64,000 bases of DNA from Arcobacter sp. CECT 8983 (lineage in GTDB: Bacteria; Campylobacterota; Campylobacteria; Campylobacterales; Arcobacteraceae). The notes beneath the pieces were generated by a model. That model was given only the letters and a program-made list of their open reading frames with translations. It was not told the origin of the DNA and searched no databases. Shown piece by piece: positions 21,206 to 51,317 of this stretch. Position 1 is the stretch's first letter. The number at the start of each line of letters is the position of its first letter. The stretch is from assembly GCF_004118855.1 (NCBI RefSeq), contig NZ_PDKF01000014.1:62001-126000 (forward strand), given 5' to 3'. A program made the position numbers and the translations under genes.

Positions 21206-21334
21206 AAATTGACCTTAAATATTTTTTGAAATATTAACCTATTTTCATTTAAACTATTTAACTTTTTTTTTAATATGAAAATTAAGCTTATATTAGATAA
21301 CTTTCAATTTCAAATTTATAAAGGAGAAATAAAA

Positions 21335-21688
21335 GTGAAAGCGCCTAAAGGTTTTGGAAAAAACTATTTTACATTTGCTAGCATTTTAGCTTATACTGTT
21401 GAATCAAAATTGCAAAATCTTGTAATAAAGGCAAAACATACATTACAGAAAAAACTATCTTCTGAAAATGATGAGTTTGATGAAAATGACCCTCCACTAG
21501 AAGAAGTCACCTTATGTTTACAAATAAATAATAGTAAACCTTGTCACTGTGATTGTTTTTTTAAAAGAAAAACAAAATTAGCAGTCTCTCTTTTCAAATT
21601 CATACCTCGTTGCCCTTTTTATTGCAAGTTCTTTGCGTTTAGACGAACAGGGGTACATCCACCATTAACAATCTTAAAATATAAATAA
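21335..21688 (+). CDS. Hypothetical small cysteine-rich protein
   Basis: Open frame of 117 residues if the GTG at 21335 is used. That start has AAGGAG eight bases upstream, much better than the ATG at 21275, which would give 137 residues. The first ~65 residues have coding-like composition (DEFDENDPPLEEV). The last part contains CHCDCFF and RCPFYCKFF, a possible metal site, but could also be noncoding sequence that happens to stay open. I do not recognise a family. It sits alone between divergent trmD and the metE leader. Real gene status is uncertain. Confidence 0.4.
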   Translation: MKAPKGFGKNYFTFASILAYTVESKLQNLVIKAKHTLQKKLSSENDEFDENDPPLEEVTLCLQINNSKPCHCDCFFKRKTKLAVSLFKFIPRCPFYCKFFAFRRTGVHPPLTILKYK

Positions 21689-21690
21689 TT

Positions 21691-21886
21691 AAGTTATGCA
21701 GAAAAAGAATAACTCGTTATTCTCTTTAGTTTTTCTCACAGAGAGTTACAACAGGCTTCTTTTGTAATTTTTTATAAATTACTTTAAAAAGAAGACAGAT
21801 AATTATAGGTCCCTTCCTAAGGTACCCTTAAAAAATTGATTATTTTTTTAGGCACCAATTTTGGGACAATTTTTAAGGTTAAAATA
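21691..21886 (+). promoter_or_regulatory. Structured 5' leader of metE
   Basis: About 195 noncoding bases with, in order: hairpin AGAATAA-CTCG-TTATTCT (21706-21723); a CTTTAG tract; a long hairpin with outer stem CTTCTTTT/AAAAGAAG and inner stem GTAATTT/AAATTAC (21756-21794); and GTCCC (21809-21813) able to pair with GGGAC (21863-21867). Last, an arm at 21826-21838 pairs with 21867-21878 (12 bp, one bulged A), burying the TTAAGG ribosome-binding site. The same parts in the same order occur before ispH. Likely a cis-acting RNA control element; trigger unknown. Confidence 0.65.
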
Positions 21887-24163
21887 ATGTCAAAATCATA
21901 TGTAATAGGTTTTCCAAGAATTGGAGAACAAAGAGAATTAAAAAAAATATTAGAAAAATATTGGTCAAAGAATTGTTCCTTTGAAGAAGTAAAAGAAGTT
22001 GCAAGTATTTTAAAAAGAAGACACTGGAAGTATCAAAAAGATGCAGGAATAAAATATATTTCATCAAATGACTTTTCATTTTATGACAATGTTTTGGATA
22101 CTTGTATTTTATTAAATGCTATTCCAAAAAGATTTAAAAACTTAGAAAATGAAGAGTTATATTTCTCTATGGCAAGAGGGAATAAAACTAGTGTAGCAAT
22201 GGAAATGACGAAATGGTTTAATACAAACTATCACTATATAGTTCCTGAACTCTCAACAGAAGATGAGTATAAATTAAATGCTTCAAAAATATTAAATGAA
22301 TATAAAGAAGCAAAAGAGTACGGAGTAAAAACAAAAATCAATCTTATTGGACCAATTACATTTTTAGGTCTTTCAAAAAGAGTTGATAGAGGTGATACTT
22401 ATGAATTTCACTCTAAAATTTTACCTATTTATGAAGAGCTTTTAAAAGAAATTTCAAAACTTGATGATGAAATTATAGTACAGATTGATGAGCCTATTTT
22501 TGTAAAAGATAATGAGCAAAAAATATTAAGCTTAATCAAACCAACTTATGACAAATTAGCAAGTGTAAGTGAAAATATCAAAATCGTTGTTGCAACATAT
22601 TTTGAACACTCTAATGAGGCTACTAAAATTTTAGTAAACACTCCTATTTATGCTTTAGCCTTAGATTTTCTATATGGAAAGAAAAACTTTAATAGTTTAA
22701 ATTTAATTGCAAAAAGTGATAAAAAACTTATTGCAGGAGTAGTTGATGGAAGAAATATATGGAAAAATGATATTGAAAAAACCATTTCAATATTAAAAAA
22801 GATTTCTCAAGAAGTTAAAAAAGAAGATATCTTAATCTCTTCATCTTGTTCATTACTTCACACACCATTTACACTACGATATGAAGAAAAACTAGATAAA
22901 AAGATAAAATCTTGGTTAAGTTACGCAGAAGAAAAACTTGATGAAATTTATTTGATTTCAAAACTGTTTTTTCACGGTAAAAATAGTTTAAATGAGATAG
23001 AAACAGAAGATTTAGAAAAAAATATAAAAACAAATAAAAGTAGAAAAACTTCAACTGTTATTCATGATAAAAAAGTAAAACAAAGAGTTGAAACTTTTAC
23101 TAAACTTTCAAGGGAAAAAGATTTTAAGCAAAGAATCAAAATACAAAAAGAGCTTTTAAAATATGAAGACTTAGCAACAACAACTATCGGTTCTTTTCCT
23201 CAAACGCTAGAGATTAGAAAAGCAAGAAGAGATTTTAAAAATAATGAAATTTCAAAAGAAGATTATGAAAAACAAATGAAACAATATATTGATGAGTGTA
23301 TTGCTTTTCAAGAAGAGTGTGGAATAGAAGTTTTAGTTCATGGAGAACCAGAAAGAAATGATATGGTTGAATACTTTGGAGAGCAACTAAAAGGTTATGG
23401 GTTTTCACAAAATGGTTGGGTTCAATCTTATGGAAGTAGATGCGTAAAGCCACCATTTATTTATGGAGATATCTCAAGACCAAAAGCAATGACTGTTGAT
23501 TGGATTACTTATGCACAAAGTAAAACAGATAAAATCATGAAAGGTATGTTAACAGGTCCAGTTACTATTTTAAACTGGTCTTTTGTTAGAGATGATAAAC
23601 CAAGAGATGAAGTTTCAAAACAAATTGCTGTTGCTTTAAGTGATGAAATAGATGATTTACAAAAAAGTGGTATTAAGATAATTCAAGTTGATGAAGCTGC
23701 ATTTAAAGAGGGATATCCTTTAAGAAATGAGAATATAAAAGATTATGAATCTTGGGCAACAAGAGATTTTAAAATCTCAGTTAGTAGTGCATATCCTCAA
23801 ACTCAAATTCATACACACATGTGTTATAGTGAATTTAATGACATTATTAAAACTATCGAAGATATGGATGCAGATGTTATATCAATTGAAACTGCAAGAA
23901 GTGGAAATGAGTTATTAAAAATATTTAAAGAAGTAGGATATAAACAAGAAGTAGGACCTGGAGTTTATGATATTCATAGTCCTAGAATTCCAAGTGTAGA
24001 GGAGTTAAAAAAACAAATCAAACTTTTACTTGAAGTTCTTCCAAAAGAACAACTGTGGATAAATCCTGATTGTGGATTAAAAACTAGAAAATGGGAAGAA
24101 GTAGTTCCAAGTTTAAAAAATATGGTTCAAGCAGTAAAAGAGATTAGAGAAGAAAATAGATAG
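21887..24163 (+). CDS. metE: Cobalamin-independent methionine synthase
   Basis: Transfers a methyl group from methyltetrahydrofolate-triglutamate to homocysteine, the last step of methionine synthesis. A longer frame from a TTG at 21836 exists, but the ATG at 21887 is chosen: it follows TAAGG and gives the family N-terminus SYVIGFPRIGEQRELK. The 758-residue protein has both halves of MetE. The zinc site in the second half is visible as HTHMC, the glutamate in SIETARS and the cysteine in INPDCGLKTR, with TTIGSFPQT starting the catalytic domain. Preceded by a long structured leader and followed by two hairpins, so transcribed alone. Confidence 0.96.
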   Translation: MSKSYVIGFPRIGEQRELKKILEKYWSKNCSFEEVKEVASILKRRHWKYQKDAGIKYISSNDFSFYDNVLDTCILLNAIPKRFKNLENEELYFSMARGNKTSVAMEMTKWFNTNYHYIVPELSTEDEYKLNASKILNEYKEAKEYGVKTKINLIGPITFLGLSKRVDRGDTYEFHSKILPIYEELLKEISKLDDEIIVQIDEPIFVKDNEQKILSLIKPTYDKLASVSENIKIVVATYFEHSNEATKILVNTPIYALALDFLYGKKNFNSLNLIAKSDKKLIAGVVDGRNIWKNDIEKTISILKKISQEVKKEDILISSSCSLLHTPFTLRYEEKLDKKIKSWLSYAEEKLDEIYLISKLFFHGKNSLNEIETEDLEKNIKTNKSRKTSTVIHDKKVKQRVETFTKLSREKDFKQRIKIQKELLKYEDLATTTIGSFPQTLEIRKARRDFKNNEISKEDYEKQMKQYIDECIAFQEECGIEVLVHGEPERNDMVEYFGEQLKGYGFSQNGWVQSYGSRCVKPPFIYGDISRPKAMTVDWITYAQSKTDKIMKGMLTGPVTILNWSFVRDDKPRDEVSKQIAVALSDEIDDLQKSGIKIIQVDEAAFKEGYPLRNENIKDYESWATRDFKISVSSAYPQTQIHTHMCYSEFNDIIKTIEDMDADVISIETARSGNELLKIFKEVGYKQEVGPGVYDIHSPRIPSVEELKKQIKLLLEVLPKEQLWINPDCGLKTRKWEEVVPSLKNMVQAVKEIREENR

Positions 24164-41675: not shown

Positions 41676-41737
41676 TCAATATTAAAGAACAACTCGTTGT
41701 TCCCTTTTAATTGGGGAACAATTAAAAGGACATATTT
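41676..41737 (+). promoter_or_regulatory. Candidate RNA switch before fabG
   Basis: Three overlapping helices. H1 is GAACAA/TTGTTC with a CTCG loop (41687-41702). H2 is TTGTTCCC (41697-41704) with GGGAACAA (41714-41721). H3 is CCTTTTAATT (41703-41712) with AATTAAAAGG (41720-41729), which covers the AAAAGGA ribosome-binding site. H2 excludes both others, so the leader can adopt a blocked (H1+H3) or open (H2) form. Equivalent H2/H3 pairs occur before ispH and metE. Structure is seen; switching is inferred. Confidence 0.65.
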
Positions 41738-50205: not shown

Positions 50206-50467
50206 AAAGAAGTTATAAAATTTGGTTCCCTTTAAAAATGGGAACATTTATTAAGAGTAAATTGTTACTCTCTTTAGGGTTTGCTTCTTTAATCAAAATT
50301 TATTTTTGATGTTAAAAGAAGTTATAAAATTTGGTTCCCTTTAAAAATGGGAACATTTATTAAGAGTAAATTGTTACTCTCTTTAGGGTTTGCTTCTTTA
50401 ATCAAAATTTATTTTTGATGTTAAAAGAAGTTATAAAATTTGGTTCCCTTTAAAAATGGGAACATTT
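50205..50467 (+). repeat. Tandem 109-bp repeat, 2.4 copies, between aroA and ispH
   Basis: Copy 1 is 50205-50313 and copy 2 is 50314-50422, apparently identical. A partial third copy (50423-50467) runs into the ispH ribosome-binding region. Each unit holds GTTCCC/GGGAAC, a hairpin AGAGTAA-ATTG-TTACTCT, a CTTTAG tract and a bulged hairpin with outer stem CTTCTTT/AAAGAAG and inner stem ATCAAAA/TTTTGAT. Parts match the metE leader. The first A of copy 1 is the last base of the aroA stop codon. Confidence 0.95.
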
Positions 50468-50483
50468 TTAAAGGATAATATTT
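50423..50483 (+). promoter_or_regulatory. Candidate RNA switch before ispH
   Basis: GTTCCC (50443-50448) can pair with GGGAAC (50458-50463). Alternatively CCTTTAAAAAT (50447-50457) pairs perfectly with ATTTTTAAAGG (50464-50474), an 11-bp hairpin that buries the AAAGGA ribosome-binding site and places GGGAAC in its loop. In the two full upstream copies the second pairing is imperfect, so only the copy next to ispH can fully hide a ribosome-binding site. Confidence 0.65.
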
Positions 50484-51317
50484 ATGAAAGTAAAACTAGC
50501 CTCAAGCTATGGTTTTTGTTTTGGAGTAAAAAGAGCAATTGAAATTGCCCAAAAGTATGAAAACTCTGCAACAATGGGTCCACTTATTCATAATCAAAAT
50601 GAAATTGATAGATTAAAAACTGATTATAATGTAGGTTTATATAACAATCTTACTGATGTTAAACCAAATGATACAATTATTATTAGAACCCATGGTATTC
50701 CAAAAAATGATTTAAAAGATTTAAGAAAAAAAGACGCAAAAGTTATAAATGCAACCTGTCCATTTGTTACAACTCCTCAACAAATAGTAAAAAAAATGTC
50801 AAAAGAAAATTACTCAATTCTAATTTTTGGAGATCAAGATCACCCAGAAGTTAAAGGTGTAAAATCTTATGGGGAAGACCAAGATGATGTACATGTTATT
50901 TTAAGTGCAGAAGAGCTTGATAATGTAAACTTTAAATATGACAAAATTGCAACTGTTGCACAAACAACAAGAAAGAAAGAGATTTACTTAGAAATTGTCA
51001 ATAAACTTATTTTAAAAAATAAAGAAGTTAGAGTTTTTAATACTATTTGCGATGCAACTTTTGAAAATCAAGATGCCGCAAGAGAACTATCAAAAGAAGT
51101 AGATGTTATGGTAATTATTGGAGGTAAAAACTCTTCAAATACTAAACAATTACATCATATATGTGTAGAAAATTGTAAAGATTCATACTTAATTGAAAAT
51201 GCAAATGAATTAGATCCTCAATGGTTCAAAAATAAAAACCTTTGTGGTATAACAGCAGGGGCGAGTACTCCTGACTGGATTATTCAGCAAGTTGTTGATG
51301 AAATAGAAAAATATTAA
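50484..51317 (+). CDS. ispH: 4-hydroxy-3-methylbut-2-enyl diphosphate reductase
   Basis: Last enzyme of the MEP isoprenoid pathway, an oxygen-sensitive iron-sulfur protein. The three cluster cysteines are in FCFGVKRAIE near residue 12, NATCPFVTTPQ near residue 94 and NTICDATFENQDAA near residue 190. The catalytic region TAGASTPDWIIQQV near residue 258 is complete. Length 277 is normal for the group. It is the first gene of the ispH-rpsA-serA stretch, an order common in Campylobacterota. Its leader is described separately. Confidence 0.97.
   Translation: MKVKLASSYGFCFGVKRAIEIAQKYENSATMGPLIHNQNEIDRLKTDYNVGLYNNLTDVKPNDTIIIRTHGIPKNDLKDLRKKDAKVINATCPFVTTPQQIVKKMSKENYSILIFGDQDHPEVKGVKSYGEDQDDVHVILSAEELDNVNFKYDKIATVAQTTRKKEIYLEIVNKLILKNKEVRVFNTICDATFENQDAARELSKEVDVMVIIGGKNSSNTKQLHHICVENCKDSYLIENANELDPQWFKNKNLCGITAGASTPDWIIQQVVDEIEKY

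Follow-up and report, generated by a model that had tools for sequence, protein, structure and literature searches.

The leader of metE in the analysed stretch of Arcobacter DNA (the window, 64,000 nucleotides in length) is, in the reading that we favour, one copy of a dispersed, non-coding repeat family of the Campylobacterota that folds as RNA. This mobile-looking RNA repeat may tune the translation of the gene that follows it, and we consider that explanation, taken as a whole, to be probable. The evidence is computational and consists of the family itself, the covariation of its stems, its bias in position and strand, its patchy distribution and the two pairings available to its last hairpin. 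The folded RNA element measures approximately 110–200 bases and comprises three modules, namely a short hairpin (P1), the sequence CUUUAG together with a long hairpin that contains a conserved asymmetric internal loop (P2), and a hairpin beside the ribosome-binding (SD) sequence (P3).

The element at metE, ispH and fabG

The leaders of metE (21706–21878) and ispH (50206–50475) had been described in the sequence-only reading as carrying the same parts in the same order, and a check of the sequence agrees, both in the places of the parts and in their succession of P1, CUUUAG, P2 and P3 beside the SD. That the two leaders carry one shared element follows from a covariance model, R1, whose three input copies come from other parts of the genus, with metE and ispH excluded, and which recovers both in a search of the window (ispH, E = 2.8e-12; metE, E = 1.1e-4). 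The features are as follows.

21275–21688: short open reading frame 5' of the metE leader
21706–21723, + strand: metE P1, AGAATAA-CTCG-TTATTCT, read from the sequence and within the R1 match at 21706–21803
21724–21729, + strand: metE CTTTAG between P1 and P2, found in nearly all aligned copies
21730–21755, + strand: metE optional insert X (TTTTTCTCACAGAGAGTTACAACAGG), 26 bases with two small hairpins
21756–21794, + strand: metE P2, outer stem CTTCTTTT/AAAAGAAG, inner stem GTAATTT/AAATTAC, loop TTTAT, 3' bulge TTTA (sequence and covariation)
21795–21807, + strand: metE A/T-rich linker (sequence)
21808–21813, + strand: metE GGTCCC
21808–21867, + strand: metE P3 in its SD-free fold, GTCCC (21809–21813) with GGGAC (21863–21867), a predicted fold
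21821–21856, + strand: metE optional insert Y in the P3 loop, about 36 bases, with related inserts at loci L006, L025, L035 and L150
21826–21878, + strand: metE alternative SD-hiding pairing, CCTTAAAAAATTG (21826–21838) with CAATTTTTAAGG (21867–21878), from a forced fold
21875–21878, + strand: metE SD, AAGG, with the start codon at 21887 (MetE by NCBIfam)
41687–41729, + strand: fabG leader, P1 fused straight to P3 with no P2, SD AAGG at 41726–41729
50206–50253, + strand: 5'-truncated remnant in the ispH leader (the end of P2 together with P3), directly 3' of the aroA stop
50254–50362, + strand: full copy 1 in the ispH leader, 109 bp (sequence and R1 match)
50363–50471, + strand: full copy 2 in the ispH leader, in tandem, P3 at 50442–50463
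50471–50474, + strand: ispH SD, AAGG, which the lowest-energy fold is predicted to hide, with the start codon at 50484

The two full copies before ispH are exact 109-bp tandem duplicates and read AGAGTAA/TTACTCT for P1, CTTTAG, CTTCTTT/AAAGAAG for the outer and ATCAAAA/TTTTGAT for the inner stem of P2, GTTA for the bulge, and GGTTCCC; in the sister genome G022, a comparable remnant is all that is present at ispH. The fabG leader is matched by R1 at 41686–41727 (E = 0.009), and its SD is predicted to be hidden.

Evidence for a conserved RNA structure

Pairing statistics were computed on 38 matches representing 35 distinct copies, in an alignment fitted to the structure, which flatters the figures. 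Within that limit, 98.5% of the predicted pair cells pair in the 35 distinct copies, against 48–60% with slid partners; two-sided changes are present at 15 of the 21 pairs, and the covariation score of 0.624 compares with 0.185 for shuffled alignments and at most 0.139 with slid partners. The inner stem of P2 was also examined in 75 distinct stems that had been selected by the flanking conserved letters alone, blind to the stem itself, and these contain 472 Watson-Crick pairs, 25 G-U, 7 A-C and 21 others. The excess of G-U over A-C (p = 0.001, an optimistic value given the relatedness of the copies) points to selection acting at the level of the RNA. P1 taken alone is non-discriminating (8 G-U and 6 A-C), and its selection itself used stem pairing. 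Folding energy provides weaker evidence, with z = -1.5 for the metE leader and z = -3.1 for the ispH leader. All of these statistics treat related copies as separate, so that the p-values are optimistic. The pair counts and the covariation score bear out the proposal of a conserved folded RNA with a covarying inner P2 stem. A hairpin that acts only as DNA, with no tolerance of wobble pairs, is disfavoured by the predominance of G-U over A-C in the inner stem of P2 and in P3.

Membership in a known RNA family finds no support in Rfam 15, at either the gathering or the E-value threshold: nothing in the entire window, nor in any of 20 related loci, reached the gathering threshold of a family, and the E-value scan of the metE leader returned chance-level matches only. 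The Rfam search that the sequence-only reading had put forward as a check thus matched no family.

Position relative to genes and the two folds of P3

The preference for 5' leaders is very strong. The nearest downstream feature is a same-strand gene start in 123 of 133 chromosomal copies, none of the 133 lies inside a same-strand open reading frame, and the upstream neighbour is co-directional in 110 and no more than 30 nt away in 68. A gene start lies within 160 nt in 104 copies, 74 of which have it 50–59 nt after P2; the open reading frames were called by a simple script, and tandem copies or short genes account for part of the 29 exceptions. The sequence-only reading had held that dispersed repeats lacking any preference for leaders would speak against it; dispersal is indeed what we find, whereas a lack of preference is not. 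The preference could nevertheless be due in part to insertion at SD sequences instead of regulation. What is unusual is the strictness of strand and start-codon distance in combination with a copy-by-copy complementarity to the SD side.

This complementarity resides in P3, for which two folds are conserved. In fold A, GGUCCC pairs with GGGACC, which leaves the SD free; in fold B, UCC-c-UUUUAAAU pairs with AUUUAAAAGGA and the SD is paired. Since both use the same UCC, they are mutually exclusive. Four or more of the five Watson-Crick pairs of the fold A hairpin are present in 82 of 87 copies, compared with approximately 5 expected from shuffled tails. Beyond the five SD-proximal pairs, the complementarity of the SD-hiding arms is 0.921 within a copy, whereas arms taken from other copies give 0.717 (300 permutations, highest value 0.762); the arms within copies include 14 G-U pairs against 2 A-C. 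The predicted probability that AAGG is unpaired has a median of 0.18 and a mean of 0.32, against a control mean of 0.55 (p = 7e-8), and the SD is predicted to be mostly free in 11 of the 87 copies; fold B is predicted to be the more stable in most copies. An arm pairing with the SD had been proposed for both leaders. At ispH the SD-hiding fold is indeed favoured (-13.8 versus -9.3 kcal/mol), whereas at metE the pairing exists but, when forced, is 5.9 kcal/mol less stable than the SD-free fold (-10.9 versus -16.8 kcal/mol), which is favoured there. Some copies, at rpsB (three loci), panC and tpiA, have no P3.

The terminator-like appearance of GGTCCC...GGGACATTTTTT in some copies is compatible with a transcription attenuator, in which P3 would be an intrinsic terminator and P1–P2 would control read-through in the manner of put-like antitermination. 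Five or more T residues directly follow the P3 hairpin in only 24 of the 87 copies, however, which argues that termination is not the general mode, and many copies have AAUUAAAAGGA or AUAAAAAAAGGA in place of the T run. The terminator reading of P3 is accordingly rejected for most copies, and we consider attenuation to be very improbable as an account of the family.

Downstream genes and patchy occurrence

In the source genome, the genes behind copies include metE, ispH, fabG, an acyl-CoA ligase, a D-alanine-D-alanine ligase, a cysteine synthase, fdhD and triose-phosphate isomerase, and no ligand-tied pathway shared among these genes was found. Over the family as a whole, too, the downstream genes (folA, tpiA, ddl, cysK, fdhD and others) are unrelated; names for loci outside the source genome were assigned by eye from the first residues, and not all were confirmed by search. 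The leaders of metE, ispH, folA, tpiA and an exonuclease gene were surveyed in 30 genomes each. A clear element precedes metE in 2 of the 30 (G000, the source genome, and G032), while G038 retains a decayed trace, and one precedes ispH in a minority; the ispH, folA, tpiA and exonuclease-gene leaders are mostly empty, with some remnants. Regulation specific to metE or ispH (methionine, isoprenoid) is ruled out by these orthologue leaders. The gene-specific sensing that the sequence-only reading implied, with methionine, SAM, folate and iron among the ligands, is likewise not upheld, given a dispersed repeat that precedes unrelated genes, most of whose orthologues lack it.

A broader cis-regulator, which would sense a ligand or protein through P1-CUUUAG-P2 and use P3 as its expression platform to form a regulon, could account for the conserved letters of the family (the internal loop with A opposite GNUA, the UUUAU loop and CUUUAG) and for a two-state, SD-hiding P3 in the leader position. 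The downstream genes share no common pathway, however, their orthologues are usually without the element, Rfam contains no relative and no pairing that clearly links P2 with P3 was seen, and we regard such a sensor as distinctly unlikely.

The ispH locus also provides a pair of filled and empty sites within one genus. The empty site in G107 reads CTTTATATTAAGGATAAATATG and the filled site in G102 reads CTTTATATTAAG, element, TTTTTAAGGATGAAAAGATG, so that in this one pair TTAAG flanks the element on both sides in G102 and is present as a single copy in G107. The two sequences are most simply read as the outcome of a clean insertion at TTAAG^GA, the point at which the stop codon of the preceding gene overlaps the SD, and the many empty relatives suggest that the direction was one of gain. 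An exact junction comes from this pair only, and insertion otherwise rests on the patchy distribution. At a further gene, shared by G000 and G010 (loci L052 and L067), the coding starts are near-identical and the elements quite different, which suggests that the element before this gene has been replaced.

Assuming that the repeat is purely selfish or neutral, inserting at SD-like TTAAGGA, its placement would reflect target choice and tolerance, and P3 would have no regulatory effect. The clean TTAAG^GA insertion at ispH, the patchy orthologues with their decayed remnants, the tandem copies at ispH and in G007 and G089, and the unrelated downstream genes would all be expected from such a repeat. 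Two observations run against it, the copy-by-copy maintenance of complementarity between the P3 arm and the SD, with G-U tolerated, and the retention of the P1-CUUUAG-P2 core across two families, although both could still serve mobility; we hold this alternative to be unlikely.

Distribution among genomes and viruses

Copy numbers were taken from model searches and are lower bounds. All 16 genomes of the genus are positive with R1, with at least 2–19 copies each, and a second model finds the element in 76 of 104 Arcobacteraceae genomes and 15 of 20 genera, the highest copy number being at least 22 per genome. When the sample was widened to the order and phylum, the only positive family besides the Arcobacteraceae was f10 (genera g52 and g43); weaker forms are seen in Campylobacter and its putative prophages. 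An earlier scan of Arcobacter sp. L, directed at intergenic regions chosen by G+C, left Arcobacter-confined motifs unnamed (PMC6429828), which may represent a previous, unnamed sighting of the element. A strict letter pattern searched over 84,980 species matched 96 stretches, and among the 80 listed almost all are titled as Arcobacter-related or as other Campylobacterota (Campylobacter majalis, Sulfurospirillum cavolei). One pattern match (L127) is in a contig titled as a Desulfosporosinus MAG, possibly a binning error. Matches are also present in 28 viral contigs (L166–L193), which look like Campylobacter prophages; in these, P1 is a different, GGGGTACCCC-type repeat and P3 is absent, and the P1-CTTTAG-P2 core, found on both strands, is often near gene starts, though less regularly placed than in chromosomes (17 of 37 copies no more than 160 nt from a gene start).

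Comparison with known repeats

Small interspersed repeats are common and are usually placed regardless of translation starts. IS200/IS605-derived single-strand elements and REP sequences have hairpins near their ends, insert strand-specifically at a short target and have no inverted terminal repeats, and the Arcobacter element is like them in these respects; the Y1 transposase, however, is missing in half of the examined genomes that contain it. As in MITEs, the copies are dispersed, short, non-coding and present or absent between relatives, but by inspection the 5' end (GAACAACTCG) and the 3' end (GGGACATTTTTAA) are not inverted copies of each other.

BOX elements of Streptococcus pneumoniae are likewise small, modular, interspersed RNA-folding repeats with repeatable modules (boxA-boxB-boxC) that are transcribed with operons, and they are thought to be non-autonomous mobile elements (PMC3049150). 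BOX, RUP and SPRITE are found more often than expected between convergent genes (PMC3049150), whereas the Arcobacter element, set apart from BOX by description and not by sequence, is on the same strand as the gene that follows it and keeps a near-fixed distance from the SD, which P3 can hide. ERIC sequences are also intergenic repeats within operons that are transcribed and whose orientation matters, and an effect on mRNA has been reported in Yersinia (PMC2229807); compared by description, ERIC affects the stability of the upstream mRNA via an RNase E site, whereas the feature conserved in the Arcobacter element is the predicted pairing with the SD of the downstream gene. The CcrM-associated CIR elements of Caulobacter, with two hairpin arms and a linker, are strictly intergenic and partly MITE-like, and the mechanism of their mobility is unknown (PMC2229807); in contrast to them, the Arcobacter element is without the GANTC theme and has a third, SD-linked hairpin and the CUUUAG linker. 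The TAACTGA repeats of Beggiatoaceae similarly lie just upstream of the start codons of functionally unrelated genes, and a translational role has been proposed for them (PMC4679880), but they are arrays of an unstructured heptamer that extend over the place expected for the ribosome-binding site, mostly without an SD, whereas the Arcobacter element covaries and keeps its SD. By analogy, the element would most resemble modular repeats of the BOX, ERIC and CIR kind combined with an SD-hiding riboswitch platform.

Proposed mechanism and significance

In the explanation that we favour, copies would be inserted, presumably by a mobile process, directly in front of a gene's SD, for the most part where two genes of the same orientation leave a gap between them; the SD would stay in place and the element would be transcribed with the mRNA. 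Fold A would form once its second arm has been transcribed, and fold B would then compete for the UCC and hide the SD. Since fold A can be the first to form as the RNA is transcribed, and fold B is predicted to be the more stable in most copies, translation would likely be lowered or timed, and the most likely effect is a weaker or time-limited translation of the downstream gene. This model supposes that the two folds of P3 interconvert in cells and that the translation of the downstream gene changes as a result. P1 and P2 may provide a docking site for protein, and the leading guesses for why P1, CUUUAG and P2 are kept are that a host protein or a mobility factor docks there.

Neither a transposase that could be tied to the element nor an autonomous form was found. 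The Y1 transposase (PF01797) is detected in only 8 of the 16 genomes, and neither in G000 nor in G005, which has at least 20 copies; being missing from half of these genomes, a Y1 (IS200/IS605) transposase is unsupported as the current driver. It is conceivable, although doubtful, that the element finds the SD itself upon insertion, through the complementarity of its UCC-c-UU arm to AAGGA, and thereby brings unrelated genes under a common two-state control that may be regulated, in a regulon whose members change from species to species.

A sense-strand family at a near-fixed distance from the start codons of unrelated, partly essential genes, with an arm that covaries with the SD, would show a repeat spreading translational control; the element has the look of a translation switch that is portable and has spread in the form of a repeat, not of a regulator of one pathway. 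To our knowledge, few RNA regulators have been named in the Campylobacterota, which gain here a testable family with at least 22 copies in the richest genome and natural pairs of filled and empty sites.

Inserts and tandem copies

Insert X consists of UUCUCnnAGAGAGU, a small variable hairpin and ACARG. Sequence of this type is present in the window (21730–21755) and at L007, L009, L010, L056, L297, L209 and L058, and is missing from the exonuclease-gene copy of G000, which is otherwise near-identical to its match L010. The position of the insert varies, from the gap between CTTTAG and P2 to the P2 loop (metE leader of G032) and, at a Campylobacter-family locus, to a site separate from the element, and insert X may be a smaller repeat in its own right. 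A third insert (about CTTCATAGCGTAGTCTTGTGRCGAACRAAGTGAAG) breaks P2 or P3 in L065, L102 and L124, so that the hairpins collect nested inserts. Tandem copies with a period of 109–112 bp are found at ispH (50254–50471 in the window) and in G007 and G089 (loci L063 and L064/L138); in G007 three copies precede an asparaginase-like open reading frame, and L142 contains several closely spaced matches.
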